Assembly (NCBI RefSeq): GCF_007644045.2
Contig: NZ_VMDW02000098.1
Coordinates: forward strand, 1 to 64,000
DNA: 64,000 nucleotides
Source of the DNA: Vogesella urethralis
Lineage (GTDB): Bacteria > Pseudomonadota > Gammaproteobacteria > Burkholderiales > Chromobacteriaceae
Direction of reading: 5' to 3'
Shown: positions 1 to 64,000 of the stretch, one piece after another
Position numbering within the stretch: the first letter of the stretch is position 1
Layout of the letters: each line of letters opens with the position of its first letter
Translations under genes and position numbers: made by a program
Notes under the pieces: model-generated
What the model saw: only the letters and a program-made list of their open reading frames with translations
What the model was told of the DNA's origin: nothing
Databases searched by the model: none

Positions 1-114
1 TACGGAGTGTGTCTACATGTCTTTCAGCAACAAACCCCTGGCCACCCTGGTGGCCCTGGCCTGTGCCCAGGCGGCCGTGGCCAAGCAGCCCGTTACCCTC
101 GATGAAGTGGTGGT
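1..114 (+). repeat. 114-bp perfect direct repeat, copy 1 (receptor leader)
   Basis: Identical base for base to 2412-2525. It covers the Shine-Dalgarno region, start codon, signal peptide and TonB box of the first receptor; identity stops at base 115 (c against g). The left end is cut by the window, so the true repeat may be longer. Confidence 0.95.
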
Positions 115-1996
115 CACTGCCTCCCGTGGCCAGGATAAAGTGCGTGAGCTGCCGGTGAATGTGTCTGTCATCACCGCCAAAGATATTGCTAGTAGCACGG
201 CGCGTACGGTGCAGGATGTGCTGTCCGGGCTGGCGGGTATCCAGATTCGTAACAGCAGCGGTGCTGCCGATACGGCAGCCGTAGACCTGCGTGGTTTTGG
301 TATCACCGGCCTGAGCAATACCCTGATTCTGGTAGATGGTGTGAAACAAAACACCAATGACCTGTCGGCGCCTAACCTGGGCGTGGTGCCGCTGAGCCAG
401 ATTGAACGGATTGAAGTAGTGCGCGGCAGTGGCGCCGTGGCCTATGGTGGCGGTGCGACCGGCGGGGTCATCAATATCATTACCCGCAGCGGTTTCAAGG
501 CGGCTGATGGCGTGCAGGCGACGTTGACTGCCGGTAGCTATAACCTGAAAAAAATCGACTTGTCCGGCCACGCCAGTAGCCAGCATGTGGCACTGGATGC
601 TTATGTGAAGTCGCTCACCACCGACAACTACCGGCAGAACAATGCCGAGCGCAACGATAGCGGCGGCCTGACCGCCACGCTACGCCACGAGGATGGCACG
701 CTGCGCTTCTACGCCCGCACCGCCAACCAGGATACGCGCTTGCCCGGTGTGCGTAGCGTGGACACGGCTAATGGCGTGGACGAGTTTGCCAGCAACCCGC
801 GCGGTACCAATAAGCCTAACGATTACATGAGCACCCAGACCGACACTTGGGGCGTACAGGCGAAGCAAGCTGCAGGCGAGGGCATGGTGCTGCTGGATGT
901 TTCGAGCGTGACCAAGAAGCTGCAAGCCGAAGATATCAGTGCCAGCTACAGCAGCAAGCGTCAGCAGAAAACCGATGAAATGACCGCCAGCTTGCGTTAT
1001 GAGCAGGATGTCGCGCGTCATCGCCTGGTATTGGGTGTAGACGCCATGTCCGGCGATGCCGACGTCGATAGCGTGGATACTTACGGCACTGCCAGCAAAA
1101 AGGTAAAGCAACGCCACGCCGGTGGCTTTGTGGATGTGTTGCTGCGGCCTGCAGAGGGCACATCGATCAATGCTGGTGTCCGCTCGCAGCACGTTGAAGA
1201 CAGTGCCAAGGTCAGCAGTGGTTATGAAAACAGCTACCGCAGTAATAAAGAGCTGCGTGCCTGGCAGCTGGGTATTCGTCAGGCGCTGCTGCCGCAACTC
1301 GATGGCTATGCCAAGCTGGGGCGTAGTTTCCGTCTGGCCAATGCCGACGAGCAGGCTTATGTCACTACCCCGCTTGTGCCGCAGACCTCTCACGATAAAG
1401 AACTGGGCTTGTCCTGGCAGCAAGCCGGGCGTGCCGTGCGTGCGGCCTGGTTCCGTTACGACCTGAACCGTGAAATTCATTACAACCCGCTCACATTTGC
1501 CAACGTCAACCTCGACCCCACCCGTCGCCAGGGCGTGGAACTGGAAGGCAAGACACCGCTTGCGGCCAACCTTGACCTGAGCGCCGCCGTGACATGGCAG
1601 CAAGCCACGTTCCGCAGTGGCGTGGCTAACAGCGTCAATCTGGCCGGCAAAACCGTGCCGCTGGTGCCGCGGCACATGGCTAGCCTGTCGCTGGGCTGGT
1701 CACCGTCCCAGGCAACGCGTGTGGGCGTGCAGTGGCAATACGTCGGCTCGCAGCGGCTGGATAACGACCAGGCCAACCAGTTTGCCCACAAGCTCGCGGC
1801 TTACAGCCTGATCAATGCCAAAGTCAGCCACGACTACAGCAAGACGGTGGGGGTGTCGCTGAGCGTCAATAACCTGCTGGATAAAAAGTATGCGTCCTAC
1901 GGTATCCGCTCGGGCTCTACTGGCGCGACCGGTAAATACAATCTGTACCCGGAAGCGGGCCGCAATATGCAGGCGTCCGTGACGATCAAGTATTGA
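17..1996 (+). CDS. TonB-dependent outer-membrane receptor (probable cobalamin/corrinoid receptor paralogue)
   Basis: A 659-residue TonB-dependent receptor, which imports a scarce ligand through a 22-strand barrel using TonB energy. The signal peptide is residues 1-22 (cleavage after AVA), followed by a TonB box (TLDEVVVTA, about 27-35), a plug domain to about 150 (LVDGVKQ, IERIEVVRGSGAVAYGGGATGG) and a barrel ending in an aromatic residue (IKY). The ATG at 17 is preceded by GGAG at 4-7. The first 114 bases of the window are identical to the leader and start of the next gene, a BtuB homologue under a cobalamin riboswitch, so a cobalamin-type ligand is the best guess, though an iron chelate is possible. 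Its own upstream control region lies outside the window. Confidence 0.85.
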   Translation: MSFSNKPLATLVALACAQAAVAKQPVTLDEVVVTASRGQDKVRELPVNVSVITAKDIASSTARTVQDVLSGLAGIQIRNSSGAADTAAVDLRGFGITGLSNTLILVDGVKQNTNDLSAPNLGVVPLSQIERIEVVRGSGAVAYGGGATGGVINIITRSGFKAADGVQATLTAGSYNLKKIDLSGHASSQHVALDAYVKSLTTDNYRQNNAERNDSGGLTATLRHEDGTLRFYARTANQDTRLPGVRSVDTANGVDEFASNPRGTNKPNDYMSTQTDTWGVQAKQAAGEGMVLLDVSSVTKKLQAEDISASYSSKRQQKTDEMTASLRYEQDVARHRLVLGVDAMSGDADVDSVDTYGTASKKVKQRHAGGFVDVLLRPAEGTSINAGVRSQHVEDSAKVSSGYENSYRSNKELRAWQLGIRQALLPQLDGYAKLGRSFRLANADEQAYVTTPLVPQTSHDKELGLSWQQAGRAVRAAWFRYDLNREIHYNPLTFANVNLDPTRRQGVELEGKTPLAANLDLSAAVTWQQATFRSGVANSVNLAGKTVPLVPRHMASLSLGWSPSQATRVGVQWQYVGSQRLDNDQANQFAHKLAAYSLINAKVSHDYSKTVGVSLSVNNLLDKKYASYGIRSGSTGATGKYNLYPEAGRNMQASVTIKY

Positions 1997-2104
1997 CCAG
2001 TTTGTACCGCGCCCCCGAGCAGACCGATTCTGTCTTGGGGGTGTATGTTCGATCCTAGTGCGCCAATGTATCAGGGCGGCATCCAGTCTGGATGCTGCCC
2101 GGTA

Positions 2105-2300
2105 TGAGGTGTGCTTGCAGGTGTCCGTCCTGCCATGGCTGCGACGGATGAAACGGGAAGCCGGTGCAAGACCGGCGCTGCCCCCGCAACGGTAAGGCCT
2201 GGGCGTATACGCCTCAGGCATCGCGATAACCACTGCCCATACGGCGGGAAGGTGCGATGCTGGCATGGCCAAGCCCGGAGACCGGCCTGCGACGAGCGCG
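2105..2300 (+). promoter_or_regulatory. Adenosylcobalamin riboswitch
   Basis: Contains the conserved cobalamin aptamer core: GAAACGGGAAGCCGGTGC near 2149-2166, GCTGCCCCCGCAACGGTAA near 2177-2195, and a B12 box (AAGCCCGGAGACCGGCCTGC, 2271-2290). It lies about 140 bases upstream of the btuB start. In this family ligand binding represses the downstream transporter gene. Ends are approximate because the P1 helix was not folded. Confidence 0.93.
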
Positions 2301-2394
2301 GCGGAATCGCGCTCAGCTGGAGTATCGCGGGGAGGCGATCTGACAGCCTGCTACCGGCACCTGCCGGCGGTATGCCGTGTCCTTTATTTCTCCG

Positions 2395-2420
2395 CACTCC
2401 CTTTTTGTCCTTACGGAGTG
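2395..2420 (+). promoter_or_regulatory. Probable riboswitch expression platform: Shine-Dalgarno-sequestering stem
   Basis: CACTCC at 2395-2400 is complementary to GGAGTG at 2415-2420, which holds the Shine-Dalgarno sequence of btuB (ATG at 2428). Closing this stem would hide the ribosome site, the usual translational output of cobalamin riboswitches in Proteobacteria. The link to the aptamer state is inferred. Confidence 0.6.
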
Positions 2421-2525
2421 TGTCTACATGTCTTTCAGCAACAAACCCCTGGCCACCCTGGTGGCCCTGGCCTGTGCCCAGGCGGCCGTGGCCAAGCAGC
2501 CCGTTACCCTCGATGAAGTGGTGGT
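2412..2525 (+). repeat. 114-bp perfect direct repeat, copy 2 (btuB leader)
   Basis: Second copy of the 5' segment seen at 1-114, covering GGAG, ATG, the signal peptide and the TonB box of btuB. Downstream the two receptor genes are clearly different, so the shared part looks like recent gene conversion or duplication of the 5' module. Confidence 0.95.
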
Positions 2526-4248: not shown

Positions 4249-4315
4249 GCCAGGCCGCCGCGGCGCCTTGCCCCGGGCGCTGCAGCCCACCGGCCGCCAC
4301 CGTGCGGCCAACCCG

Positions 4316-4386: not shown

Positions 4387-4920
4387 ATGACCACCACGCA
4401 CCTGATTAGCGGCGGCGCCCGCAGCGGCAAGAGCCGTTACGCCGAAAGCCTGGCGCTACAGCACGCCGGCGCAGTGTGCTACGTGGCCACCGCCGAGCGT
4501 CGCCCCGACGCCGCCTTTGCCGAGCGCATCGCCCACCATCAGGCGCGGCGGCCGGCGCACTGGGGGCTGGCCGAGGCCGGCCGCGAGCTGGCCAGCGTGC
4601 TGCAACAGGCCGCCCCGGGCAGCTTACAGCTGGTGGATTGCCTGGGCATGTGGCTGATGCGCTTTTTTGATGCCGATGGCCGCTTTGACGCCGACGCCTG
4701 GCAGCAACAGCGCAGCGCGCTGCTGGCCTTATTGGCCGCGCCAGCGGCCAGCATCGTGCTGGTCAGCAACGAGGTGGGCTGGGGCGTGGTGCCCCTGGGG
4801 GCGGAAACCCGTCATTTTGTCGACGAGCTGGGCCGGCTCAACCAGGACGTGGCGGCGGTGTGCCAGCGCGTCAGCCTGGTGGCCTGCGGCCAACCGTTGC
4901 TGCTGAAAGGCCAGCCATGA
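4387..4920 (+). CDS. cobU: Adenosylcobinamide kinase / adenosylcobinamide-phosphate guanylyltransferase
   Basis: A 177-residue bifunctional CobU/CobP enzyme: phosphorylates adenosylcobinamide and then transfers GMP to give adenosyl-GDP-cobinamide during nucleotide-loop assembly of cobalamin. The P-loop GGARSGKS is at residues 9-16; the usual active-site histidine region (IAHHQARRPAHW) is at about 48-59; the conserved NEVGWGVVPLG segment is near 120-130. The start at 4387 follows GACAGGAAA. The stop overlaps the btuF start (ATGA). Location behind btuB and ahead of btuF fits salvage of imported corrinoids. No other nucleotide-loop genes (cobS, cobT, cobC) are in view. Confidence 0.93.
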   Translation: MTTTHLISGGARSGKSRYAESLALQHAGAVCYVATAERRPDAAFAERIAHHQARRPAHWGLAEAGRELASVLQQAAPGSLQLVDCLGMWLMRFFDADGRFDADAWQQQRSALLALLAAPAASIVLVSNEVGWGVVPLGAETRHFVDELGRLNQDVAAVCQRVSLVACGQPLLLKGQP

Positions 4921-5792
4921 TGCGGCGCGGGTTGGCCGCAGCCTGCCTGCTGCTGGCTACGACTGCTCAAGCCGGCGTGGCGGTACGTGACGGCATGGGC
5001 AATAGCGTGGTACTGCCGGCACCGGCCAAGCGCATCGTGGTACTGGTGCCGCACGCGGTGGAAACGCTCTACGCCATCGGCGCCGGCAAACAGCTGGTGG
5101 CGGCGGTGGATTACAGCGATTACCCGCCTGCGGCGCGCCAGTTGCCGCGCGTGGGCGGCTATAGCGGCCTGAACGTGGAGGCCATCCTGCAACAGCAGCC
5201 GGACCTGATCGTGGCTTGGCGCGACGGTGGCAACCTGCGCACGGTGCAGAAGCTGCGCGAGATGGGCATACCGGTTTACTACAGTGCGCCGGTGCTGCCG
5301 GCCGATATCCCGCGCGAGATGCGCGCCCTGGGTACCCTGAGCGGCCAGCAGGCCGGCGCCGAGGTCCAGGCCGCGCAGTTCGAGCAGCGCATGAGCCGGC
5401 TGCAACAGCGTTATCGCCACAGCGCCCCGGTGCGGGTGTTCATGCAAATCGGCGAGCAGCCCATTTTTACCGTCAGCGGGCAGAGCTTTCTGGGGGCGCT
5501 GATAACCCAGTGCGGCGGCCGCAACGTGTTTGCCGGCCTGGCGCTGCCGGCGCCGCAAGTGAGCACCGAAGCGGTGATCCTGGCCCGTCCGCAACTGATG
5601 CTGGCCTTCAGCCCGGCGCTGCACGCGGCGTGGCAACGTTGGCCGCAACTGCCGGCAGTGGCAAAAGGCTTGCAAGTTACCGTGGATCAGGACACGATTA
5701 GCCGGCCCGGCCCCCGTCTGGCCGGCGCTGCCGAACAACTCTGTACCACTCTGGATCTTGCCAGGCAAAAGCTGGGTTTGACGCCCCGGTAG
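4917..5792 (+). CDS. btuF: Periplasmic cobalamin-binding protein
   Basis: A 291-residue periplasmic binding protein of the BtuF/helical-backbone class, which delivers vitamin B12 from the receptor to the BtuCD importer. Signal peptide 1-19 (LLLATTAQA), then AKRIVVLVPHAVETLYAIGAG, VDYSDYPPAARQLPRVGGY and LQQQPDLIVAW, typical of the two-lobed class III fold. The double ATG at 4917/4920 overlaps the cobU stop, so translation is probably coupled. The membrane and ATPase partners (btuC, btuD) are not in the window, so they must lie elsewhere or be shared. Confidence 0.9.
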   Translation: MMRRGLAAACLLLATTAQAGVAVRDGMGNSVVLPAPAKRIVVLVPHAVETLYAIGAGKQLVAAVDYSDYPPAARQLPRVGGYSGLNVEAILQQQPDLIVAWRDGGNLRTVQKLREMGIPVYYSAPVLPADIPREMRALGTLSGQQAGAEVQAAQFEQRMSRLQQRYRHSAPVRVFMQIGEQPIFTVSGQSFLGALITQCGGRNVFAGLALPAPQVSTEAVILARPQLMLAFSPALHAAWQRWPQLPAVAKGLQVTVDQDTISRPGPRLAGAAEQLCTTLDLARQKLGLTPR

Positions 5793-6558: not shown

Positions 6559-7152
6559 ATGACCGCTGCCGACCCGCTCCGCGACAAGGCCCAGCTGCGC
6601 AAAACCTTGCGTCGTGCGCGTATGGCTTTGCCGCGTGCCTATCGCCAGCAGGCTGCTCGCGCCATTGCCCGCCATGCCTCGCGCTTGTTGCGCCGTGGCA
6701 AGCACCTGGGTGCCTATATCGCCGCCGGTAGCGAGCTGGATATGGCGCCGCTGATGGCCGCCGCGCGCGGCCGTGGTGCGGCGCTGTACCTGCCGGTGAT
6801 CCCGCAGCGCGGGCGCCGGCTGTGGTTCGCCCGTCTGGGTGCGGCCAACCTTTGGTATACCCACCCGCGCTACGGCATTGCCGAGTACGCCGGCCCGCAG
6901 CTGCGTGCCGAGCGGCTGGACGTGCTGTTTGTGCCTTTGTTGGGTATTGATGCCGACGGCTACCGCATGGGGCAGGGCGGCGGTTTCTACGACAGCACGC
7001 TGGCTTTTCGTCGCCGTCACCCGCGTTACGGCAAACCGTTGCTGGTGGGTGTGGCCTACGACTGCCAGCGCGTGGCCCGTGTGCCGCGCGAACCGTGGGA
7101 CGTGCGTCTCGATTACCTGTTGACCGAGAGCGGCCTGCACCGCTTTGCCTGA
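6559..7152 (+). CDS. fau: 5-formyltetrahydrofolate cyclo-ligase
   Basis: A 197-residue 5-FTHF cyclo-ligase (methenyltetrahydrofolate synthetase), which converts 5-formyl-THF to 5,10-methenyl-THF with ATP. It shows the N-terminal basic segment (LRKTLRRARMALP), and the nucleotide/folate loop GYRMGQGGGFYDSTLAF at about 135-150. Family length is 180-200. The start at 6559 lies just beyond the 6S RNA. The ssrS-fau pairing is widespread. Confidence 0.9.
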   Translation: MTAADPLRDKAQLRKTLRRARMALPRAYRQQAARAIARHASRLLRRGKHLGAYIAAGSELDMAPLMAAARGRGAALYLPVIPQRGRRLWFARLGAANLWYTHPRYGIAEYAGPQLRAERLDVLFVPLLGIDADGYRMGQGGGFYDSTLAFRRRHPRYGKPLLVGVAYDCQRVARVPREPWDVRLDYLLTESGLHRFA

Positions 7153-8461: not shown

Positions 8462-8842
8462 ATGAAGCGCACTATCGCCGGCTGGCTGCTGGCAGGGTTG
8501 GCCGCAGCTGTTCATGCTGCCGACAACGGGCCTTTGTACACCGGCCAGCCCGGCGAGCTGCCGGTGCAGGTGGCGCTGGCCTATCTGGCGCCCGATATGG
8601 GCCGCGACGGCCAGTTCGAGTACGCGCGCCTGCGCATCAGCCAGCGCAGCCAGCCGGAATCGTTCGACCGCGTCAGCGTCAGCATCCAGCAGGATGGCCT
8701 GCTGGACGACAGCGTGCGCGCCCGGCGCTGGACGCTGCAGCTGATCCGCGGCGGCGATGGCCGCTGGTACATCACCCGTCAGCTGGCAGAGCAGCGCTGC
8801 TACCGTGGTGCGCAGGGCTGGCAGCGCAAGCCCTGCCCCTGA
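8462..8842 (+). CDS. Hypothetical periplasmic protein
   Basis: A 126-residue protein I do not recognise. AAAAGGAG lies just upstream of the ATG at 8462. It has a clear signal peptide (MKRTIAGWLLAGLAAAVHA), then a soluble domain rich in Gln, Arg and Tyr (LRISQRSQPESFDRVSVSIQQDG, WTLQLIRGGDGRWYITRQL) and two late cysteines (C116 and C125 area, RCYRG and KPCP) that could form a disulfide. It follows the TauE-type permease by 11 bases and is probably in the same operon. Confidence 0.7.
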   Translation: MKRTIAGWLLAGLAAAVHAADNGPLYTGQPGELPVQVALAYLAPDMGRDGQFEYARLRISQRSQPESFDRVSVSIQQDGLLDDSVRARRWTLQLIRGGDGRWYITRQLAEQRCYRGAQGWQRKPCP

Positions 8843-8868: not shown

Positions 8869-11576
<2,708 letters not shown>

Positions 11577-12194: not shown

Positions 12195-13191
12195 GGTGCT
12201 GAAAGAGCAGCTGGCGCGCGGTGCGGCGCCGGCACCGCTGTACGTGGTGTTCGGTGACGAGGCACTGCTGGCGCTGGAAGCCGCCGATGCCATCCGTACG
12301 GCGGCACGGGCGGCCGGTTACGACGAGCGCGAGGTGCTCACCGTCGAGGGCGGCCACTTCGACTGGTCGCGCCTGCACGACGCCACCTGCAGCGTGTCGC
12401 TGTTTGCCAGCCTGAAGCTGCTGGAGATCCGCATTCCCGGCGGCAAGCCCGGCACGGAAGGCGGAGAGGCGCTGCAGCAGCTGGCGGCCAACCCGCCGCA
12501 GGACACGGTGACGCTGCTGCAACTGCCCAAGCTGGATAAAACCCAGCAGAAGGCCAAGTGGTTTGCCGCGCTGGAAAAGCACGCCGTGCTGGTCGAGGCG
12601 CGCCCGGTGGGCCGCAACGAGCTGCCGGCGTGGATCAGCCGCCGTCTGAAGGCGCAGGGCCAGCAGATCGGCAGCGAGGCGGCGTCGTTCTTTGCCGACC
12701 GCGTGGAAGGCAACCTGCTGGCCGCCCGCCAGGAAATCGACAAGCTGGCGCTGTTGTACCCCAAGGGCGAGCTGGGGCTGGACGCCATTCGCGAAGCGGT
12801 GGCCAACGTGGCGCGCTTTGACGTATTCCATTTGTCGGAAAGCTGGCTGGCCGGCGATACCGCCCGTGCCATGCGCATGCTGGACGGGCTGGAAGCGGAA
12901 GGCGAGGCGCCTGTGCTGGTGTTGTGGTCGTTTACCGAAGACGTGCGCATGCTGATCAAGCTGGGGCGTGGCCTGAAGGATGGCCGCCAGGTACGCGACA
13001 TGGCCGGCGAGCTGCGGCTGTGGGGCGACAAGCAAAGGTTGGCCGCACCGGCAGTGCAGCGCATCGGTGCCCGTCGTCTGACCGAGGCGTTGGCCGAGTG
13101 CGCGCGCATCGACCGCCAGATCAAGGGTGTCGAGCAAGGCGACGCCTGGCACAGCCTGAAACGGCTGGCCGCCAGCCTGGCGGTACGCTAA
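12163..13191 (+). CDS. holA: DNA polymerase III delta subunit
   Basis: A 342-residue delta subunit of the clamp loader, which opens the beta clamp. Family segments are PLYVVFGDEALLALEAADAIR (12-33 area), RPVGRNELPAWISRRLKAQGQQI, ANVARFDVFHLSESWLAGD and WSFTEDVRMLIKL. Length matches the usual 330-345. The start overlaps the end of lptE; a second in-frame ATG lies two codons further. A bidirectional terminator follows. Confidence 0.95.
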   Translation: MAMPSQHLSPEVLKEQLARGAAPAPLYVVFGDEALLALEAADAIRTAARAAGYDEREVLTVEGGHFDWSRLHDATCSVSLFASLKLLEIRIPGGKPGTEGGEALQQLAANPPQDTVTLLQLPKLDKTQQKAKWFAALEKHAVLVEARPVGRNELPAWISRRLKAQGQQIGSEAASFFADRVEGNLLAARQEIDKLALLYPKGELGLDAIREAVANVARFDVFHLSESWLAGDTARAMRMLDGLEAEGEAPVLVLWSFTEDVRMLIKLGRGLKDGRQVRDMAGELRLWGDKQRLAAPAVQRIGARRLTEALAECARIDRQIKGVEQGDAWHSLKRLAASLAVR

Positions 13192-13983: not shown

Positions 13984-14160
13984 GAGTAAAGAACCAATGC
14001 CCTTGCGGGCGGAACGCGCATGGTACTGATTCTTCGGAGAAATTTCCAGTTTTTGCCGGAATGTGTGGCGATGGCAGGTGGGGTTTTGCTGCATCCCCAT
14101 GGCTTAAAGCCTGCTATAGCTGGCTTTGCGGGGTGTTGGCCGCCAGAAAAAAATTTGCCT

Positions 14161-15304: not shown

Positions 15305-15340
15305 GGTTGGCCGCAACGCCTTGCGGCATTGCGGCCAACC
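15305..15340. terminator. 12-bp hairpin made of two opposed GTTGGCCGC motifs
   Basis: GGTTGGCCGCAA (15305-15316) and TTGCGGCCAACC (15329-15340) are exact complements around a 12-base loop, between rsfS and rlmH. There is no T-run on either strand, so termination is uncertain; it may attenuate or serve as a paired uptake-type sequence. Confidence 0.5.
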
Positions 15341-17308: not shown

Positions 17309-17746
17309 TCATGGCGCAAGCGGCTTGCGCAGGCACAGCTGGCGTTTGGCGACGTGGTAGCCCTGGCGCTGGTAGAAACGGTGGGCATCGCTGCGTTGTT
17401 CGTGGCTGCGCAGGGTGATCAGCGTCAGCCCCTGTTGCCGTGCCCAGCTTTCGGCGGCATCGAGTAGCTGGCTACCGATACCCTGGCCGCGGGCGGCTTC
17501 TGCCACCACCAGGCCGCCGATTTCCAGCGCCGGGTCGGATTCCAACAGCGGGCGCACGTAGCCGTGCAGCCAGCCGCATACGCGGCCCTCGCTTTCTGCC
17601 ACCAAGATCAGGTGCACGTCCGGCCGGGCCAGCAGGGCGGCCAACCTGGGCGCCAGCTGTGCCGGCGTGGCCGGGTAGCCCAGTTGGCCGCATAGCGGCG
17701 CCAGGGCGGCGAGGTCGTCGGGGCGGGCGGGGCGCAGCGTTACCAT
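17309..17746 (-). CDS. GNAT-family N-acetyltransferase
   Basis: A 145-residue acetyltransferase fold: MVTLRPARPDDLAALAPL, core strand ALEIGGLVVAEAARGQGIGSQLLDAAESWARQQG with the acetyl-CoA loop (R/Q-x-x-G-x-G/A), and HRFYQRQGYHVAKRQL. The substrate is unknown. Its ATG overlaps the stop of the DUF2804 gene in ATGGTAA, which implies coupled translation. Confidence 0.88.
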   Translation of the reverse strand: MVTLRPARPDDLAALAPLCGQLGYPATPAQLAPRLAALLARPDVHLILVAESEGRVCGWLHGYVRPLLESDPALEIGGLVVAEAARGQGIGSQLLDAAESWARQQGLTLITLRSHEQRSDAHRFYQRQGYHVAKRQLCLRKPLAP

Positions 17747-19466: not shown

Positions 19467-19476
19467 CCCGGCCTGC

Positions 19477-24088: not shown

Positions 24089-24198
24089 GCCGCCTGCGGC
24101 CAACCTTGGGGCAGGGCGCGCCGCACGGCGCCCCTGCACTAGCCGAATAGAGGCAGCCGGCGCCGTGGCGCCTGCTGCCCCACGATGTGGATAAAGCC

Positions 24199-27767: not shown

Positions 27768-27787
27768 TGCGGCCAACGTTGGCCGCA
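27768..27787. repeat. 20-bp palindrome: two head-to-head GTTGGCCGC motifs after lpd
   Basis: TGCGGCCAACGTTGGCCGCA, 11 bases after the lpd stop, followed at 27802 by a proper terminator. Same palindrome as at 24546. Confidence 0.9.
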
Positions 27788-43435: not shown

Positions 43436-46400
43436 CTACAGGATAACCGCCGTGTTGGCCGCCACCAGCTTGGCGGCGGCACCCAGCGTCAGCGGGCGGC
43501 CGGTGAGGTAACCCTGTACCGCCTCGCAGCCCAGCCGCGCCAGCGCGGCCAGCTCTTCTTCGGTTTCCACCCCTTCGGCCAGCGCTTCCATTTTCAGGCT
43601 CTTGGCCAGCGTGATGATGGCCAGCACGATGGCGGCGTTGTCGTCGCGGTGCTGCAGGTCGGTGACGAAGCAGCGGTCGATCTTCACGGTGTCCGGAGCA
43701 AAGTCCTTCAGGTAGGCCAGGCTGGAATAACCGGTACCGAAGTCGTCTACCGCCAGCCGTACCCCCAGCGCCTTCAGGCCGTCCAGCGCCGCCTTGACGT
43801 GGCCGGTGCGCTCCAGCAGCGCGCTTTCGGTAACCTCGATCTCCAGCTGTGCCGGTGCCAGACCGGTTTCCTGCAAGATGCCGGCCACCAGCCCGGCAAA
43901 ATCGGGCTGCGCCAGCTGGCGTGGTGACACGTTCACCGCCATGGTCAGCGCGTCCTCGCCGTGTTGTGGCCAGGCGGCGGCCAGGCGGCAGGCTTCGCGC
44001 AGCACCCAGCTGCCGATATCGATGATCAGCCCCGACTCCTCGGCCACCGGGATGAACTGCGCCGGCGGTACCGACACGCCGTGATCGTCGGTCCAGCGTA
44101 GCAGCGCCTCGAAGCCCGACAGGCGGCGGTCTGCCACCCAGAATTTGGGCTGCAGCATCAGGTGCAGCTCCTGCCGCCCCAGCGCGCCGCGCAGGCGGTT
44201 TTCCAGCAGCAGGCGCTGGCGGACCTCGGCGGTCATGCGTTCGGTGAAGAAGCGGTAGTTGTTGCGGCCCTGGGCCTTGGCTTCGTACATCGCCATGTCG
44301 GCGTTTTTCAGCAGCAGCTGCGCGTCGCGGCCATCGTCGGGGCTGACCGAGATGCCGATGCTGGCGGTAATCACCAGCTGGTGGCCGTCCAGCTGGAACG
44401 GCTGGCGCAGCGCGTCCAGCACGCGTTCGGCGATCAGCGCCGCCTGCGCGTTGTCGGCCAGCTCCGGCAGGATCATCACGAACTCGTCGCCGCCGGTGCG
44501 GCCAACGGTGTCCATGTCGCGTACCACGTGGCGGGTGCGGCGCGCCACTTCCTGCAGCAGGGTGTCGCCGGTGGCGTGGCCCAGGGTGTCGTTGATGTTC
44601 TTGAAGCGGTCGAGGTCGAGGAACAGCACCGCCACCTTGTGGCGGCTGCGTTCGGCCACGCGCAGCGCCTGCTGCAGGCGGTCCATCAGCAGCAGGCGGT
44701 TGGGCAGGTCGGTCAGGTAATCGTACTCGGCCAGGTGCTGCACCCGCGCTTCGGCTTCCTTGCGTTCGCTGATGTCGGAGAACAGCGCGATGTAGTTGCT
44801 GAGCTTGCCGTGGCTGTCGCGCAGTGCGTTGATGCTGAGCCACTCGGGGTAGATTTCGCCGCTTTTGCGCCGGTTCCAGATCTCGCCGGACCACTGGCCG
44901 CGCAGCTGCAGCTGTTGCCACATGTCGCGGAAGAAGGCAGCGTCGTGTTTGCCGGAGCTGAGCAGGGCAGGGGTCTGCCCCAGCGCTTCGGCCTCGCTGT
45001 AGCCGGTGATGGCGGTAAACGACTGGTTGGCCGCCACGATGCGGCTGTTGGCGTCGGTGATCAGGATGGCCTCTGTGCTGGCTTCGAACACCTTGGACGC
45101 CAGCCGCAGCGCACGCTCTTGTTCCAGGCGCTGGCTGATGTCGCGCGCGGTGGCGCACAGGTAGTGCTCGCCACGGTAGTGCACGCTGCTGTGGCGGATT
45201 TCCAGGGTGCGCGGCCCGTGGCAGCACTGGATTTGCCGCTCGCTGCATTCGCCGTCGTCCAGGCGCAGCGCAAACAGCTGTTGTTCGCTGCCGTCACTGC
45301 AGCCGTCAAAGCATTCGCGGGCGCGCTGGTTGCGGTAGGCGATGTTGCCGCGTGCGTCGCGCAGCACGATGATGTCGGCCGCGCTGTCGCTCATGTAGCG
45401 GGTCAGCTCGATTTCGGGGGCGTTCTGTTCCAGCGCGGCTTGTTTTTCCTCGATCTGGCGCTGGTAGGCGTCGGCCAACTGCCGCAGCCAGCGCGCAAAC
45501 AGCAGCGAGAACATCACCGCCAGCATCAGCGCGGTGACAAATATGGCCAGCGTGGCCAGCACCCGTTGCTCGGTCTGCTCGCCCAGCAGTTGTTGCTGGG
45601 CGGCGTCGTCGGTTTGCAGCAGGCTGGCGGGCGACACGGCAATCACCTGCCACTGCCACGCGGTCATGCGGCCAACGTAGGCGGTGTAGGCACGCGTGCC
45701 GTGGCTGCCGGGCAGCTGGAAGTCGAGCACGCTACCGGCCGGGGCGTGCCACAGCCGCTGCCGCAGCGCGTCGGGGAGCGGGCGCTGCTGCCCGTCCAGC
45801 CCCAGCAGCACGCGGCCCTGGCCGTCCAATACGATAAAGCCGCCGCGTTTGTCGCTGCGCATCTGCGCCAGCAGGGCCAGGCCTTGCTTTTGCAGGTCGG
45901 CCGCCACGTTGCTGACGTATTCGCCGCCGCCGATCAGCCAGCCGAACGGTTCGAAGCGGCGTGCGTACGCCACTTTTTCTGCCATCTTTTTCTCGCCCGG
46001 CCGGTACCAGCGGTAGCTGGTAAAGCCGGCGCCCAGCGGGTTTTGTGTGGCGGTGATCAGGTTGCGCATGATGTAGGCGCCGGTATCGTCGCGGTTGTTC
46101 AGCAGCGAGCTGCCTTCCAGCTTGGGCTGGGTCGGCAGCAGCACGCAGTCGCCTTGCAGGGTATCGACAAAGAAATAGCCGCGGCCGTCAAAGTAGCGCA
46201 GCGGGCGCAGTGCCTCGATGATCTCGTGGCGGGCGCGGGCATCCGGTTGCCCGGAGCCGGCATGGGTCTGGTACAGCGCAGTGGCCAGCGCGTGCGCCTG
46301 GTCCACGTGTTCGTGGATGCGCTGGCGCAGGATGTCCTGCGTCTGCCGGTGCAGCGTGTCCAGCGTGATGATGGCGTCTTCGCTCCAGGTGCGCAGGAAG

Positions 46401-47100: not shown

Positions 47101-47113
47101 CCCCATTCTATTG

Positions 47114-47269: not shown

Positions 47270-48313
47270 ATGCAAATCGGCCCCTACGTCCTCAAGAACC
47301 GTCTGATCGTCGCCCCCATGGCCGGCGTCACGGACCGGCCGTTCCGCATGCTGTGCAAGAAGCTGGGCGCGGGGATGGCGGTATCGGAAATGATCACCGC
47401 CAACAAGGCGCTGTGGACCACGCCGAAGACGCTGCGCCGCGCCAACCATGAAGGCGAGGTAGAGCCCATCGTGGTGCAGATCGCCGGCGGCGACCCGCAG
47501 ATGCTGGCCGACGCCGCCCGTCTGAACGTGGAGCACGGCGCGCAGATCATCGATATCAACATGGGTTGCCCGGCCAAGAAGGTGTGCAATGTGGCCGCCG
47601 GTAGCGCGCTGCTGCGCGACCTGGACAACGTTGGCCGCATCCTGGAAGCGGTAGTGAAAGCAGTGGACGTGCCGGTGACGCTGAAAACCCGCACCGGCTG
47701 GAGCAGCGAGGTGAAAACCGCGCTGCAGGTGGCACGCATGGCCGAAGACGCCGGCATTGCCGCGCTGGCCCTGCACGGCCGCACCCGCGAGGACATGTAC
47801 CGCGGCGCGGCAGAGTACGACACCATCGCCGCGGTAAAGCAGGCGCTGCGCATTCCGGTGGTGGCCAACGGCGACATCGACAGCCCGCAAAAAGCCAAGT
47901 ACGTGCTGGATTACACCGGCGCCGACGCCATCATGATCGGCCGTGCCGCGCAGGGCCGGCCGTGGATCTTCCGCGAAATCCAGCATTACCTGGATAGCGG
48001 CGAGCTGTTGCCGCCGCCGCGCATTGCTGAGATCGACGCCATCATGCAGGCGCATCTGGCCGAGCTGTACGACTTTTACGGCGAATACAGCGGCTGCCGC
48101 ATCGCCCGCAAGCACATCGCCTGGTACACCAAGGGGCTGCGCGGCAGCAACGAGTTCCGCCAGGCCATGTACAAGCTGGAAAGCACCGCCGCGCAGCAAG
48201 TGGCGGTGGCCGATTACTTTGCCGGCCTGGCGCAGCATTCGGACCGGCTGCAATACGTAGAACAAGACGCAGAACAAGGCAGTGCGGACGCCGACGCGGC
48301 CGCGCTGGCATAA
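47270..48313 (+). CDS. dusB: tRNA-dihydrouridine synthase B
   Basis: A 347-residue FMN enzyme that reduces uridine 17 (DusB site) in the tRNA D-loop. LIVAPMAGVTDRPFRMLCKKLG near the N-terminus, INMGCPAKKVCNVAAGSALL with the catalytic Cys, LHGRTREDMYRG and VVANGDIDSPQKA are all family motifs. The start at 47270 (MQIGPY) has no clear Shine-Dalgarno. dusB-fis is a conserved operon. Confidence 0.95.
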   Translation: MQIGPYVLKNRLIVAPMAGVTDRPFRMLCKKLGAGMAVSEMITANKALWTTPKTLRRANHEGEVEPIVVQIAGGDPQMLADAARLNVEHGAQIIDINMGCPAKKVCNVAAGSALLRDLDNVGRILEAVVKAVDVPVTLKTRTGWSSEVKTALQVARMAEDAGIAALALHGRTREDMYRGAAEYDTIAAVKQALRIPVVANGDIDSPQKAKYVLDYTGADAIMIGRAAQGRPWIFREIQHYLDSGELLPPPRIAEIDAIMQAHLAELYDFYGEYSGCRIARKHIAWYTKGLRGSNEFRQAMYKLESTAAQQVAVADYFAGLAQHSDRLQYVEQDAEQGSADADAAALA

Positions 48314-50390: not shown

Positions 50391-50421
50391 GGTTGGCCGC
50401 CTTCCTTGCGGCCAACCTTTT
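50391..50421 (+). terminator. purH terminator built from two opposed GTTGGCCGC motifs
   Basis: GGTTGGCCGC (50391-50400), loop CTTCCTT, GCGGCCAACC (50408-50417), then TTTTG. A 10-bp perfect stem 15 bases after the stop. Confidence 0.8.
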
Positions 50422-51044: not shown

Positions 51045-52322
51045 ATGAAAATCCTGGTAATCGGCTCTGGTGGCCGCGAGCACGCCCTGGCCTGGCGCAT
51101 TGCCCAGTCGCGCCGTGTATCCAAAGTGTTTGTGGCACCGGGTAACGCCGGGACCGAACTGGACCCGAACCTGACCAACGTGGCCATCACCGCCATTCCC
51201 GAGCTGGTGGCCTTTGCCCGCGACGAGAAAATCGAACTGACCGTGGTCGGCCCGGAAGCGCCGCTGGCTGCCGGGGTGGTAGACGCCTTCCGCGCCGCCG
51301 GCCTGAAAATTTTCGGCCCCACCCAGTACGCCGCACAGCTGGAAAGCTCCAAGGATTTTGCCAAGGCCTTCATGCAGCGCCACGGCATTCCCACCGCCGG
51401 TTACGAAACCTTCAGCGACGCCGCTGCCGCCCACGACTACGTTGGCCGCAAGGGCGCGCCGATCGTGATCAAGGCCGACGGCCTGGCCGCCGGCAAGGGC
51501 GTGGTGGTGGCGATGACGCTGGACGAAGCGCACGCTGCCATCGACGACATGCTGGTGGGCAACAAGATGGGCGACGCCGGTGCCCGCGTGGTTATCGAGG
51601 ACTTCCTGCAAGGCGAAGAAGCCAGCTTCATCGTGATGGTAGACGGCGAGCACGTGCTGGCCATGGCCACCAGCCAGGACCACAAGCGCCTGCTGGACGG
51701 CGACATGGGCCCCAACACCGGCGGCATGGGCGCGTACAGCCCGGCACCGGTGGTGACGCCGGAAATCCACGCCCGCGTGATGCGCGAGATCATCCTGCCG
51801 ACGGTACGCGGCATGAAAGCCGACGGCCACACCTACACCGGCTTCCTGTACGCCGGCCTGATGATCGACGCCGACGGCAACCCGTTCACCATCGAGTTCA
51901 ACTGCCGCTTTGGCGACCCGGAAACCCAGCCCATCATGGCGCGTTTGAAGTCTGACTTCACCGTGCTGCTGGAAGCCGGCGTCAACGGCAAGCTGGATAC
52001 GGTGGAAGCCGACTGGGACCGTCGCGTGGCACTGGGCGTGGTACTGGCCGCCGAAGGCTACCCGGAAGCGCCGCGCAAGGGCGACCTGATCAGCGGCATT
52101 CCGGCACATACCGACGACACCATGACCTTCCACGCCGGCAGCACCTTTGACGCCGACAAGCAGCTGGTAACCAACGGTGGCCGCGTGCTGTGCGTGGTAG
52201 GCCTGGGCGACAGCGTGAAAATGGCGCAGCAGAAAGCCTACGCCGTGGCCGACCAGATCCAGTTTGCCGGCAAGCAGCTGCGCCGCGATATCGGCGGCAA
52301 GGCGCTGAACCGCAACAAGTAA
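51045..52322 (+). CDS. purD: Phosphoribosylamine-glycine ligase
   Basis: A 425-residue GAR synthetase (second step of purine synthesis). MKILVIGSGGREHALAWRIAQS, VVGPEAPLAAGVVDAFRAAG, ATP-grasp segments VIKADGLAAGKGVVVAMTLDEA and GFLYAGLMIDADGNPFTIEFNCRFGDPETQ. Start at 51045 has GAGG seven bases upstream; an ATG at 51039 would add two residues. Confidence 0.97.
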   Translation: MKILVIGSGGREHALAWRIAQSRRVSKVFVAPGNAGTELDPNLTNVAITAIPELVAFARDEKIELTVVGPEAPLAAGVVDAFRAAGLKIFGPTQYAAQLESSKDFAKAFMQRHGIPTAGYETFSDAAAAHDYVGRKGAPIVIKADGLAAGKGVVVAMTLDEAHAAIDDMLVGNKMGDAGARVVIEDFLQGEEASFIVMVDGEHVLAMATSQDHKRLLDGDMGPNTGGMGAYSPAPVVTPEIHARVMREIILPTVRGMKADGHTYTGFLYAGLMIDADGNPFTIEFNCRFGDPETQPIMARLKSDFTVLLEAGVNGKLDTVEADWDRRVALGVVLAAEGYPEAPRKGDLISGIPAHTDDTMTFHAGSTFDADKQLVTNGGRVLCVVGLGDSVKMAQQKAYAVADQIQFAGKQLRRDIGGKALNRNK

Positions 52323-54264: not shown

Positions 54265-54840
54265 GTGAAGACACCGTTTCCCCGTTTGCCCGCCCGGGCG
54301 CAGGTAGACGCCGCCCGTGGCCGCTTGCGCGCCGGCGGCGTGCTGGCCTACGCCACCGAGTCCTGCTTCGGCCTGGGCTGCAACCCGTTCGACGTGCGTG
54401 CCATCCGCCGCATCCTGGCCATCAAGGGCCGGCCCACGCACAAGGGCCTGATCGTGATTGCGGCCAACCTGCAGCAGCTGCGGCCGCTGATCCGCCCGCT
54501 CACGCCGGCGCAGCTGGCCACCGTGCAACGCTACTGGCCCGGCCCGTACACCTTTTTATTGCCGGCGTCGCGCCGCGTGCCCACGCTGCTGCGCGGGCGG
54601 CATGATAAAATTGCCGTTCGCATCAGCGCCCACGGCGAAGCCGCCGCGCTGTGCCGCGCGCTGGGGTCGCCGCTGGTGTCCACCTCGGCCAACCGGGCCG
54701 GGCAGAAGTCGCTGAAAACCGCCCGCGGCTGTCGCCAGGCCTTCAGCCGCCAGCAGGTGCTGACCCTGCAGGGCCGCATCGGCAAACGCCGCAAACCGTC
54801 TACCATTATCGATCTCGACAGCGGGCGCGTACTGCGCTGA
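54265..54840 (+). CDS. tsaC: Threonylcarbamoyl-AMP synthase-type protein (YrdC/Sua5 family)
   Basis: A 191-residue YrdC-domain protein, which makes L-threonylcarbamoyl-AMP for the t6A37 modification of tRNA. GGVLAYATESCFGLGCNPFD, KGRPTHKGLIVIAANLQQL, YWPGPYTFLLPA, IAVRISAH, SPLVSTSANRAGQ and STIIDLDSGRVLR are diagnostic. The YATESCFGLGC segment takes the place of the more common YPTETVYGLG, the TsaC (rather than Sua5) form. GTG start at 54265. Confidence 0.92.
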   Translation: MKTPFPRLPARAQVDAARGRLRAGGVLAYATESCFGLGCNPFDVRAIRRILAIKGRPTHKGLIVIAANLQQLRPLIRPLTPAQLATVQRYWPGPYTFLLPASRRVPTLLRGRHDKIAVRISAHGEAAALCRALGSPLVSTSANRAGQKSLKTARGCRQAFSRQQVLTLQGRIGKRRKPSTIIDLDSGRVLR

Positions 54841-55759: not shown

Positions 55760-55793
55760 TGCCAGGCGGCACAAGGTTGGCCGCAACGGCCGC

Positions 55794-56390: not shown

Positions 56391-56463
56391 ACAGGTTGGC
56401 CGCAATAAAAGGAGATGACCGATTCTAGCGCCCCCGCGCTGCGGCCAACAGCCACCGCCGCGC

Positions 56464-57080: not shown

Positions 57081-57109
57081 GCTGTGGCAGGGCCAGGTTG
57101 GCCGCAGGC

Positions 57110-59656: not shown

Positions 59657-60635
59657 CGTGCTCTCCCAGATGGCTGCGCAGCGCGGCGCGCACGCCAACC
59701 AGCGCAGGGTAGGGGCTGTGAATCACGTATACCGGCATGGCGCCGGTGTAGCCGGCAAAGCGGCCGGTGGCTTCGAAGCGGGCGCGGAAGGCGGAGCGGG
59801 CAAAGAAGTCGCCCAGGCGCGGTACCACGCCGCCGCCGATGTACACGCCACCGACAGCGCCCAGCGTCAGCGCCAGGTTGGCCGCCGCGGTGCCCAGCAT
59901 GGCGCAGAACAGTTCCAGCACGCGCACGCAGCGCGCATCGCGGCCGGACAGGCCGCGTTCGCTGATCTGCGCTGCCGACAGCTGGCCTGCGGCTTCGCCA
60001 GCCTGCACGCTCAGTGCGTCGTGGATCAGCTCCAGGCCGGGGCCGGACAGCAAACGCTCGGCCGAGACATGCTCGCCAAAGCGGGTTTGCGCGTAGCGCA
60101 GTAGCGCGGCTTCGTCGTCGTCCAGCGGCGAAAACGCCACGTGGCCGCCTTCGCCGGCGATGGCCACCCAGTCGCCGCCTGCCGGCAGCAGGCCGGACAC
60201 GCCCAGGCCGGTGCCGGCACCGATCAGCGCCTTGGCGCCCGGCTTGGCGTCGCCGCCGCCCACTTGTACCAGCTCGTCGGCCGGCAGGTGCGGTAGCGAC
60301 AGCGCCAGCGCGGTGAAGTCGTTCAGCACCAGCAGGGTGTGGAAGCCCAGCGCCTGGCGCGTTTCCTCGATCGAGAACGACCAGTGGTGGTTGGTCATCT
60401 GCACGCGGTCGCCGTTAACCGGGTTGGCAATACCAATGGCGGCGTGGTGCACGGCGCGGGTGTGCGCGTTTTCCAGGTAGCTGCGCATGGCGTCGGCCAG
60501 CGTGGCGTAGTCCTTGCACGGCAGCACGTCGATGTCTTCGATGACGCCCGGCGCGGTTTCCAGGGCAAAACGGGCGTTGGTGCCGCCGATGTCGGCCAGC
60601 AGGCGCGGGAAGGGATTAGGCTGCCCAGTAGACAT
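59649..60635 (-). CDS. glk: Glucokinase
   Basis: A 328-residue bacterial glucokinase: FPRLLADIGGTNARFALE (phosphate loop), IGIANPVNGDRVQMTNHHWSFS, LVLNDFTALALSLPHLP, the GAGTGLGVSGLLPAG loop and EGGHVAFSP. Produces glucose 6-phosphate for zwf. Start at 60635 lies inside the 3' end of pgl (20-base overlap). Confidence 0.95.
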   Translation of the reverse strand: MSTGQPNPFPRLLADIGGTNARFALETAPGVIEDIDVLPCKDYATLADAMRSYLENAHTRAVHHAAIGIANPVNGDRVQMTNHHWSFSIEETRQALGFHTLLVLNDFTALALSLPHLPADELVQVGGGDAKPGAKALIGAGTGLGVSGLLPAGGDWVAIAGEGGHVAFSPLDDDEAALLRYAQTRFGEHVSAERLLSGPGLELIHDALSVQAGEAAGQLSAAQISERGLSGRDARCVRVLELFCAMLGTAAANLALTLGAVGGVYIGGGVVPRLGDFFARSAFRARFEATGRFAGYTGAMPVYVIHSPYPALVGVRAALRSHLGEHDA

Positions 60636-61308
60636 GAAGCGGTTTCTCCGAAGGCTGCAGCAGGTAGCTGATGGGGTAGGTGGCGTCCACGGCTTGCGCG
60701 GCGGTGTCGAGCACGGTGCGTTTGCCGGCGCCGGCAATGGCCAGGTACAGCTTGCCGCTGCGTTGCAGTTCGGCCAGCGTCATGCTGATGCGGCGGTGCG
60801 GTGCCGCCGGCGGCACGATGCCGATCAGCGCCTGCGGGTTGGCCGCATCCAGGCCTTCCGCCAGGTTATCGGCAGCCGGGAACAGCGACGCAGTGTGGCC
60901 GTCGTCGCCCATGCCCAGCACCACCACGTCCGGCGTTTGCCACAGCGTTTGTGCCGTGGCCAGCTCTTGCTCGGGGTTGGCCGCGGTGTTCACCAGCGGC
61001 AGGAAGGCGGCGGCGGCGGCCGGGCCTTGCAGCAGGTACTGGCGTACCAGGCCGGCGTTGCTGTCGGCGTGCTCGGGCGGCACCACGCGCTCGTCTACCA
61101 GCGTGATGGTCACGCGCTGCCAGTCCAGCGCCGTCTGCGCCAGCGCCTGGAAGAACGGTACCGGCGAGCGGCCGCCGGACACGGCCAGCGTGGCGCGGCC
61201 GCGGCTGTCGATGGCGGCGGCCAGGTCGGCAGCTACCGCTTGGGCCAGGGCCGCGCTCGCGTCGGCGGCCTGGGAAAATTCATTCAGATGCATCTCTGTA
61301 TCGTCCAT
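60616..61308 (-). CDS. pgl: 6-phosphogluconolactonase
   Basis: A 230-residue DevB/SOL-type lactonase: AVSGGRSPVPFFQALAQTALDW, ITLVDERVVPPEHADSNAGLVRQYLL, DVVVLGMGDDGHTASLFPAADNL and SMTLAELQRSGKLYLAIAGAGKRTVL. Hydrolyses the zwf product. An ATG at 61293 (MHLNEF) is an alternative start. Follows zwf after 168 bases that hold one GTTGGCCGC motif. Confidence 0.95.
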   Translation of the reverse strand: MDDTEMHLNEFSQAADASAALAQAVAADLAAAIDSRGRATLAVSGGRSPVPFFQALAQTALDWQRVTITLVDERVVPPEHADSNAGLVRQYLLQGPAAAAAFLPLVNTAANPEQELATAQTLWQTPDVVVLGMGDDGHTASLFPAADNLAEGLDAANPQALIGIVPPAAPHRRISMTLAELQRSGKLYLAIAGAGKRTVLDTAAQAVDATYPISYLLQPSEKPLHVYWAA

Positions 61309-61476
61309 GCAGGGGTCGTCTTGCGGCGACCTGATCGGCCCGGTGGGCCGGGCTCGACAGTGTTGTCGGCCACCGCCCTGCGCAAAGGTGGGGCAGGGTG
61401 GTGGCCGCGTTGCTACCCGGTGCTGCCGGGTGCCAGGTTGGCCGCAACGCGGGGGCGGGCCAGCCTTATATCGTGA

Positions 61477-62949: not shown

Positions 62950-62976
62950 CCTGATTGTTCTCGCACAAGGTTGTGA

Positions 62977-62991
62977 TGTAGTTATATTACC
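62977..62991. promoter_or_regulatory. HexR operator at zwf
   Basis: TGTAGT-TAT-ATTACC, a near palindrome matching the HexR motif (TGTARTNNNAYTACA type). It overlaps the proposed -10 of zwf. Confidence 0.75.
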
Positions 62992-63011
62992 AAACAAGCC
63001 CCACTTGTCTA
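62984..63011 (-). promoter_or_regulatory. Probable zwf promoter
   Basis: On the minus strand TAGACA (63011-63006), a 16-base spacer and TAATAT (62989-62984), 35 bases from the start codon. HexR bound at 62977-62991 would cover the -10. Confidence 0.55.
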
Positions 63012-63141
63012 TGTCGATTATTCAGGCCATGCCGTTGCCTGGTGGCGTGTTGTTGGCGGCCAACAAACCTTCAAATAATTGATTTGTAATGTTTTTTTGG
63101 CAAATTTTGCCATTGGCGTCAGCTTTTTGTGGTGTAGCGCC

Positions 63142-63170
63142 TTGCAAACAGACTGTAGTAAAACTACCAT
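63142..63170 (+). promoter_or_regulatory. Probable edd promoter
   Basis: TTGCAA (63142-63147), 17-base spacer, TACCAT (63165-63170), 29 bases before the start codon. The HexR site lies in the spacer and -10. Confidence 0.55.
63154..63168. promoter_or_regulatory. HexR operator at edd
   Basis: TGTAGT-AAA-ACTACC, same form as the site at 62977. The two sites are 177 bases apart between divergent genes. Confidence 0.78.
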
Positions 63171-63198
63171 TCGATCACCTCCATCAGGGTCGATACCA

Positions 63199-64000
63199 AT
63201 GAGTCTGCATCCCGTACTGCACGCTGTTACCCAGCGCATCATCGAACGCAGCCGCGACACCCGCGCGGCCTACCTGGCGACGGCCCGCGCTGCGATGCGC
63301 CAGGGCAAGGTCGAGCGTTCCCAGCTGTCCTGTACCAACCTGGCCCACGCGTTCGCCGCCATGCCGGACGGGATCAAGATCCACCTGAAAGAGGCGGCCC
63401 GCCCCAACCTGGCCATCGTGTCCGCTTACAACGACATGTTGTCGGCGCACCAGCCGCTGGAAACCTTCCCCGCCATCATCAAGGCCGAGGCCTTGAAAGT
63501 GGGCGCTACCGCCCAGTTTGCCGGCGGCGTGCCGGCGATGTGCGACGGCGTGACCCAGGGCTTCGAGGGCATGGAGCTCAGTTTGTTCTCGCGCGACGTG
63601 ATTGCCATGAGCACCGCCATCGCGCTGAGCCACCAGATGTTCGACGCCGCGCTGTACCTGGGCGTGTGCGACAAGATCGTGCCCGGCCTGTTGATCGGCG
63701 CGCTGGCTTTCGGCCACCTGCCGGCGGTGTTTGTACCGGCCGGCCCGATGACCACCGGCATCGCCAACGACGAAAAAGCCAAGGTGCGCCAGCTGTACGC
63801 CGAAGGCAAGGTTGGCCGCGACGCGCTGCTGGAGTCCGAAATGGCCTCCTATCACGGCCCGGGCACCTGCACCTTCTACGGCACCGCCAACAGTAACCAG
63901 ATGCTGATGGAAGTGATGGGCCTGCACCTGCCGGGCGCCGCCTTCGTCAACCCGAATACCCCGCTGCGCGACGCGCTGACGCGCCGCGCCGCCCGTGTGG
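63199..64000 (+). CDS. edd: 6-phosphogluconate dehydratase, 5' part
   Basis: The first 267 codons of Edd; the gene runs off the window. It makes 2-keto-3-deoxy-6-phosphogluconate, the HexR effector. [101 protein letters not shown] and [27 protein letters not shown] are diagnostic for the dihydroxyacid/phosphogluconate dehydratase family and Edd in particular; the Cys in MCDGVTQG and in GTC are iron-sulfur ligands. Start by family alignment; Shine-Dalgarno weak. eda is expected next. Confidence 0.95.

Follow-up and report, generated by a model that had tools for sequence, protein, structure and literature searches.

A candidate DNA uptake sequence in Vogesella and the ComP pilin that may read it

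Why should one 9-letter word, GTTGGCCGC, recur 62 times in 64,000 nucleotides of a bacterial chromosome? The stretch that raises this question, hereafter the window, is positions 1 to 64,000 of contig NZ_VMDW02000098.1 of Vogesella urethralis (contig C81 of the 4,028,666-base, or 4.03-Mb, genome), a genus that the NCBI taxonomy places in the Chromobacteriaceae, Neisseriales. The sequence evidence makes it very probable that GTTGGCCGC, with the full form AGGTTGGCCGCA, is the DNA uptake sequence (DUS) of Vogesella, read by a pilus system containing the minor pilin ComP. The observations seem best explained by DUS–ComP uptake outside the Neisseriaceae, which would work as the known system does while lacking both its CTG core and the double-disulfide (DD) region of its receptor. 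According to the available part of a 2025 paper (PMC12616744), only Neisseriaceae and Pasteurellaceae are known to tell self from foreign DNA by a short motif at uptake, and we found no published description of the present motifs in the open-licence PubMed Central literature.

The 62 exact copies in the window (35 on the plus and 27 on the minus strand) compare with a mean of 2.79, and at most 8, in 100 dinucleotide-preserving shuffles. This bears out the original prediction of about 60 copies far above chance, and all 18 of the positions it had named are among them. Genome-wide there are 3461 copies (1745 + 1716 on the two strands), while the word with its letters in reverse order is found 86 times. 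A 464-kb sample, composed of the window, 340 kb of contig C70 and 60 kb of contig C9, with 440 genes called by a simple gene-finding script, contains 432 copies (0.93/kb); 1259 permuted 9-mers of equal composition average 15 there, the largest count being 208. Within genes we find 296 copies against a mean of 46, and at most 59, in 40 within-gene synonymous-codon shuffles, so that a codon-aware background does not give similar counts. These coding copies read as Ala-Ala-Asn on the opposite strand in 120 cases, as x-Leu-Ala-Ala in 78 and as Val-Gly-Arg in only 44. The last, which had been put forward as a frequent reading, is therefore a minority frame and was rejected as the driver of the motif. 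GTT is indeed rare among valine codons (60 of 1318 in the called window genes).

In the 464 kb the sequence logo adds A-G before the core and A after it (A-G-GTTGGCCGC-A). Among intergenic copies the core is preceded by A, A and G at frequencies of 0.62, 0.62 and 0.62 and followed by A at 0.76, and T directly after the core is rare (9 of 432 copies). AGGTTGGCCGCA itself occurs 11 times in the window, and the extended flank predicted at nine places was recovered at every one, within a base or two. There are 91 copies with a single mismatch in the core, compared with 236 exact 10-mers, and these are not in excess of the Markov expectation; a contrast with Neisseria on this point was given up, because published figures may include exact copies.

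The same word is found, with different endings, in related genera. Whole-genome word counts were made for 61 genomes of the family, of which 23 carry the signal (DUS+), the weakest being G438 with 183 copies. The genus groups are denoted here by number: g4 is Gulbenkiania mobilis, g161 is Crenobacter oryzisoli and strain JH1-16, g160 includes Crenobacter luteus and g164 includes Pseudogulbenkiania subflava; g2 and g3 are, at a guess, Chromobacterium and Aquitalea. All 13 Vogesella-group genomes, the present one included, carry 1871-2895 copies of the -CA form GTTGGCCGCA, which reaches at most 58 elsewhere; the motif is thus not absent from close relatives. The -AG form GTTGGCCGAG has 1940 and 1590 copies in two g160 genomes. 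The -AA form GTTGGCCGAA has 2168 and 579 in g161, 1245 in g4, 1851 in g163, and 1104, 893 and 183 in g164; of the ten genomes of g3, G117 holds 1368. No clear signal for these words is seen in the remaining 38 genomes (19 g2, 9 g3, 4 g159 and 6 g162), with slightly raised counts in the g162 genomes G431 and G434 (-AA 62 and 45; -AG 92 and 85). Enrichment over an order-5 Markov model, computed on 80-kb samples from ten relatives in nine other genera, likewise gave other 3' ends on the same word, strongly in four relatives (g160, g161, g4 and g163) and more weakly in one (g164), and 20-kb loci of named species agree with the whole-genome dialect counts. Across 399 genomes of the order, more than 254 copies of GTTGGCCGC occur only in six of the genus Vogesella, and more than 47 copies of GTTGGCCGAA only in G117 and G312. 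The Vogesella motif is one dialect of a wider family: related genera use GTTGGCCGAA or GTTGGCCGAG, and others are without it.

P. ferrooxidans 2002, which we take to be Lutiella nitroferrum 2002, carries GTTGGCCGAA, as do the g164 genomes, where the density is about 0.2-0.26/kb in two of three and 0.06 in the third. The available part of Frye et al. 2013 (PMC3630211) lists five genomes as having no obvious DUS, two of them of Chromobacterium and one each of Laribacter, Pseudogulbenkiania and Lutiella, the last being Lutiella nitroferrum 2002. Two further observations concern dialects. The Crenobacter oryzisoli genome G428 has a mixed dialect and fewer copies (579 -AA and 165 -AG) than its relative G429 (2168 and 55). 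In 80 kb of G416 (g2), the 12-mers TGCTCATGTACC (9 copies) and CGAGACAAGGCG (10 copies) stand out, perhaps as a local repeat family.

Copies are also kept between species more often than control words, which were permuted 9-mers in the orthologous regions of the window. These regions were placed solely by full-length matches of a GGDEF-EAL anchor protein, and only sites in ungapped alignment were counted (66 of 72 in G444, 49 of 62 in the window). From G444 to G440 (94.8% DNA identity) 58 of 66 exact copies are kept, against 67% of controls; from the window to G444 (86.9%) 33 of 49, against 36%; and from the window to G027 (80.6%) 14 of 35, against 24%. The weakest comparison is that with G392, in which 5 of 14 are kept against 22% and mean identity within the motif lies below that of control words. 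Five group genomes hold 58-72 copies in 64-72 kb of orthologous sequence, and G392 holds 36 in 72 kb; since copy numbers differ, species have gained some sites and lost others.

An ortholog of ComP, the DUS receptor of Neisseria, is present in all 23 motif-bearing genomes. The Vogesella protein has Neisseria ComP as its best match in both sequence and fold (2m3k, 2nba, 5hz7), and in three congeners it is identical to the ComP of V. indigofera, V. alkaliphila and V. fluminis, a further congener having the ComP of V. margarita LYT5W. The check proposed with the original prediction, for a ComP-like minor pilin and com/pil genes, turned up ComP, PilM, PilN, PilO, PilP, PilQ, ComEC and DprA in this genome. 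In two other Vogesella-group genomes, G445 and G446, each with more than 2000 motif copies, there was no ComEC match above the cut-off, which could be due to assembly gaps.

ComP was read in 50 of the 61 genomes. Seven of the 19 g2 and all four g159 genomes were left out, the best ComP-profile match in g159 reaching at most 72 bits, which is the paralog level; six g162 rows, at 81-118 bits, lie near it. In the loop between strands 1 and 2, N[TAV]D is present in 22 of 23 DUS+ genomes and in 0 of 27 DUS-, and the preceding residue is basic (K or R) in 19 of 23 and in 1 of 27, respectively, being R in all 13 Vogesella-group genomes. HMMER aligns this residue with the basic residue of the Neisseria ComP beta1-beta2 loop, and in the portions available of PMC12616744 and PMC4906244 that loop, centred on Lys/Arg90, is where the shifts upon DUS binding are largest. 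The loop signature separates motif-bearing from motif-less ComP genomes, with G436 as the DUS+ exception. It is important to note that the signature was found by inspection among related rows, and that on a ComP tree from which the loop columns had been removed 2 changes of the DUS label suffice, which leaves few effective contrasts between loop and motif.

The only DUS+ g3 genome, G117, has the loop ANTDAG, against GNAR[ADN]D in its nine g3 relatives. In the same tree its ComP falls outside the clade of those nine (98/95), on a long branch at an unresolved fork, and a transfer of comP is possible. Being the lone g3 species in which GTTGGCCGAA is abundant, it may have undergone a switch or transfer of the uptake system. 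G436 carries two tandem ComP-like genes (G436:C3:1518672-1519606), neither with N[TAV]D, the second of which was left out of the tree and the loop count. Its ComEC match is in two pieces; with 1851 motif copies in a genome 80% complete, this is possibly a decaying system.

In the mechanism that we envisage, ComP, carried as a minor pilin by the type IV pilus, would bind free DNA with a preference for DNA bearing the motif. The pilus would pull the bound DNA through the PilQ secretin, ComEC would pass one strand inward, and DprA and RecA would recombine the imported strand. Because motif-bearing DNA would be imported and recombined more often, the motif would accumulate wherever proteins and RNAs tolerate it, and would therefore become genus-specific, evenly spread and densest between genes. 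We infer from this set of results that Vogesella ComP reads the Vogesella motif, that Vogesella cells are transformable and that biased uptake maintains the motif.

The placement of the copies has this character. In the 464 kb the density is 2.16/kb between genes (136 copies) against 0.74/kb within them, about threefold, so the intergenic enrichment that the original prediction needed is there. By orientation of the flanking genes, it is 4.6/kb between convergent, 2.2 between co-directional and 1.1 between divergent genes. Copies are spread over 10-kb blocks more evenly than a Poisson distribution would have it (variance/mean 0.41, P 0.0002; with pairs merged 0.43, P 0.0004), as calculated from 44 of 46 blocks, the two that hold a ribosomal protein operon being left out. 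This operon, with secY and rpoA (C9, about 17800-30000), is nearly motif-free and is the sole long motif-poor stretch. Its G+C is about 55%, against 65% in the window, and Pfam identifies ribosomal proteins S3, L16, L5, L15, S11, S4 and S5, SecY, RpoA and a chemotaxis receptor; that it might be a prophage was rejected, PHROGs having matched 2 of 10 proteins, both of unknown function. A motif-poor ribosomal operon fits exclusion of the motif from strongly constrained genes.

Neighbouring copies within 60 bases form 32 pairs, 29 inverted and 3 tandem. Of the inverted pairs, 23 are intergenic and seven abut, each of these forming the 18-mer GCGGCCAACGTTGGCCGC; GTTGGCCGC is not its own complement, and palindromes arise solely as such pairs. 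In Neisseria and Haemophilus such pairs form terminators, as the original prediction pointed out. Here the pairing stands, and of the 25 inverted pairs whose copies lie within 40 bases of each other only 9 have a run of T beside them, which makes terminators plausible for some of the pairs only. The copies in the window are as follows (coordinates, strand, description).

1562..1570, minus, motif (AAGGTTGGCCGCAA)
4304..4312, minus, motif, intergenic
4886..4894, minus, motif, inverted pair with 4931
4931..4939, plus, motif, intergenic, inverted pair with 4886
5638..5646, plus, motif
6841..6849, minus, motif (AAGGTTGGCCGCA)
8497..8505, plus, motif, intergenic
9789..9797, minus, motif
10542..10550, minus, motif
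11229..11237, plus, motif
12484..12492, minus, motif
13038..13046, plus, motif (AAGGTTGGCCGCA)
14135..14143, plus, motif, intergenic
15306..15314, plus, motif, intergenic inverted pair with 15331
15331..15339, minus, motif, intergenic inverted pair with 15306
17637..17645, minus, motif, inverted pair with 17683
17683..17691, plus, motif, inverted pair with 17637
17962..17970, plus, motif
20057..20065, plus, motif
20657..20665, plus, motif
21072..21080, plus, motif, intergenic
24096..24104, minus, motif, intergenic (AAGGTTGGCCGCA)
24547..24555, minus, motif, left half of abutting 18-bp palindrome
24556..24564, plus, motif, right half of abutting 18-bp palindrome
27769..27777, minus, motif, intergenic, left half of abutting 18-bp palindrome
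27778..27786, plus, motif, intergenic, right half of abutting 18-bp palindrome
28682..28690, minus, motif
29053..29061, plus, motif
29962..29970, plus, motif
30263..30271, minus, motif
33206..33214, plus, motif, intergenic
34476..34484, minus, motif
35011..35019, plus, motif, intergenic
37360..37368, plus, motif
39300..39308, minus, motif
39657..39665, minus, motif, inverted pair with 39671
39671..39679, plus, motif, inverted pair with 39657
40140..40148, minus, motif
41122..41130, plus, motif
41355..41363, minus, motif
41758..41766, plus, motif
42104..42112, minus, motif
42666..42674, minus, motif
43454..43462, plus, motif
44498..44506, minus, motif
45026..45034, plus, motif
45668..45676, minus, motif
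47630..47638, plus, motif
50392..50400, plus, motif, intergenic inverted pair with 50408, then TTTT
50408..50416, minus, motif, intergenic inverted pair with 50392
51441..51449, plus, motif
54460..54468, minus, motif (CAGGTTGGCCGCAA)
55776..55784, plus, motif, intergenic (AAGGTTGGCCGCAA)
56395..56403, plus, motif, intergenic inverted pair with 56441
56441..56449, minus, motif, intergenic inverted pair with 56395
57097..57105, plus, motif, intergenic
59877..59885, plus, motif
60838..60846, plus, motif
60976..60984, plus, motif
61437..61445, plus, motif, intergenic (CAGGTTGGCCGCAA)
63056..63064, minus, motif, intergenic
63811..63819, plus, motif

Several observations weigh against a ComP-read uptake sequence. 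The CTG at +6 to +8, the core shared by all eight described DUS dialects in the accessible text of PMC12061091, is CCG in all three dialects here. The terminator part of the DUS inverted-pair arrangement is weaker. The four-cysteine DD region of Neisseria ComP is missing from the Vogesella protein. In the alignment of the 50 ComPs no cysteine lies in beta1, only a C-terminal pair is conserved and some rows have extra cysteines elsewhere; since the aligned beta1 position holds none, the C76-C125 staple is absent, and in Vogesella little sequence separates the two C-terminal cysteines. Furthermore, ComP orthologs of 97-146 bits are found in 19 of 19 g2 and 10 of 10 g3 genomes, 28 of them motif-less (19 g2 and 9 g3), and we accordingly rejected the presence of ComP as an explanation of where the motif occurs.

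The last two points would also suit an uptake sequence whose receptor is another minor pilin, such as the PF16732-positive PilE-like pilin at locus L092 or a FimT. PF16732 matches 1 to 4 pilins in each of the 61 genomes, and the best of the four in this genome is the PilE-like paralog rather than the ComP ortholog, a result that led us to drop PF16732 as a marker of ComP. We nevertheless consider a different receptor unlikely, given that the L092 pilin has P. aeruginosa PilE as its best match and matched no ComP chain at E-values up to 0.1, whereas the ComP ortholog matches Neisseria ComP best. In both g161 genomes, moreover, the motif is present and the single PF16732 match is the ComP ortholog, and it is the ComP loop signature that tracks the motif.

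Less probable again is that the motif is kept by some protein that binds or modifies DNA but has no part in uptake, be it a HIP1-like word with a methyltransferase, a nucleoid or segregation site, or a Chi-like hotspot. The palindrome GGCC within the core, the even spacing of sites and the seven abutting palindromes are what such a protein might leave. HIP1 of cyanobacteria is a palindrome and a very abundant short word genome-wide; the present motif shares the abundance, but its unit is non-palindromic and has 3'-end dialects. Chi and KOPS are strand-biased, whereas the copies here are near equally divided within contigs (C70, 170 plus and 160 minus in 340 kb; window, 35 and 27; C9, 22 and 18 in 60 kb), and a polarity of that kind was rejected on these within-contig counts. 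The genus-specific dialects and the enrichment between convergent genes are instead DUS-like; no search aimed at methyltransferases was made. Finally, an origin in codon usage, protein repeats or base composition, to which the 65% G+C of the region and the 208 copies of the related word CTGGCGCTG in the 464 kb might point, is refuted by the codon-aware null and the permuted-word counts, by the denser intergenic copies, and by the 79-144 copies of GTTGGCCGC, against 3461 here, in seven genomes that represent three further genera of this family.

The window has other features besides. Two tandem genes (17-1996 and 2428-4248), the first a TonB-dependent receptor by Pfam, share their first 30 residues; a cobalamin riboswitch (2102-2304) lies between them and CobU follows, an arrangement that resembles a duplication within a vitamin B12 locus. 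A 6S RNA (6347-6530) and a class A RNase P RNA (46695-47102) score above the Rfam gathering thresholds.

Among the known systems, the uptake signal sequence (USS) of Pasteurellaceae has a 9-letter core at about one copy per kb. Like the USS as treated in the available part of PMC12616744, the motif is non-palindromic, and, as it happens, the Vogesella form has a complement that starts with TGCGG. USS cores are, by the same portion of that paper, AAGTGCGGT or ACAAGCGGT with downstream AT-rich stretches; the core here differs, and the -AA and -AG dialects lack GCGG. A USS-like arrangement was rejected, as none of the 432 sites has an AT-rich tract within 45 bases on either side.

The closer likeness is to the DUS of Neisseriaceae. 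As in the accessible portions of PMC3630211, there are thousands of non-palindromic 10-12-mers per genome with one dialect per lineage, lying on both strands and in inverted pairs, with a ComP ortholog and the 12-mer frame AGG......GAA; the carriers here are genera of the Chromobacteriaceae group instead. Genus-wide abundance, sister dialects, the ComP ortholog, ComEC, DprA, inverted pairs and conservation together uphold the predicted DUS-like system with a motif unlike the GTCTGAA-core dialects. The candidate receptor, like Neisseria ComP as described in parts of PMC4906244 and PMC12061091, has a prepilin signal and a WP.LP stretch after helix 1, and its predicted model has five strands, as in Neisseria ComP. 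Set in the DUS 12-letter frame, the dialects read AG-GTTGG-CCG-AA/CA/AG, in which the C and G of the core are kept and T is replaced by C; the A that is invariant at +10 in DUS is A in two dialects and G in one. The change from -AA to -CA mirrors the A/C difference at +9 between kingDUS and king3DUS (PMC3630211, available part). AGGTTGGCCGAA agrees with AG-simDUS at 9 of 12 letters (P 0.003 in frame, 0.009 with shifts of up to 3, either strand) and the Vogesella form at 8 of 12 (P 0.016 in frame, 0.08 with shifts, either strand), which suggests common descent of these dialects and the Neisseriaceae DUS.

We lean, if only slightly, towards the broader view that sequence-tagged uptake of self-DNA is older and wider than the Neisseriaceae. 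A DD-less ComP would read CTG-less 12-mers (AGGTTGGCCG plus CA, AA or AG) in seven Chromobacteriaceae genus groups, and would do so chiefly by way of a short beta1-beta2 loop (R/K-N-T-D-x-G); lineages with a changed loop would have lost the uptake sequence and kept ComP. If this is true, there is a third family with such a system, with three dialects and a smaller receptor; adding the right 12-mer should ease transformation of these bacteria; and, together with related species without the motif, these bacteria would form a natural series from which to read the code that links ComP to its DNA motif.

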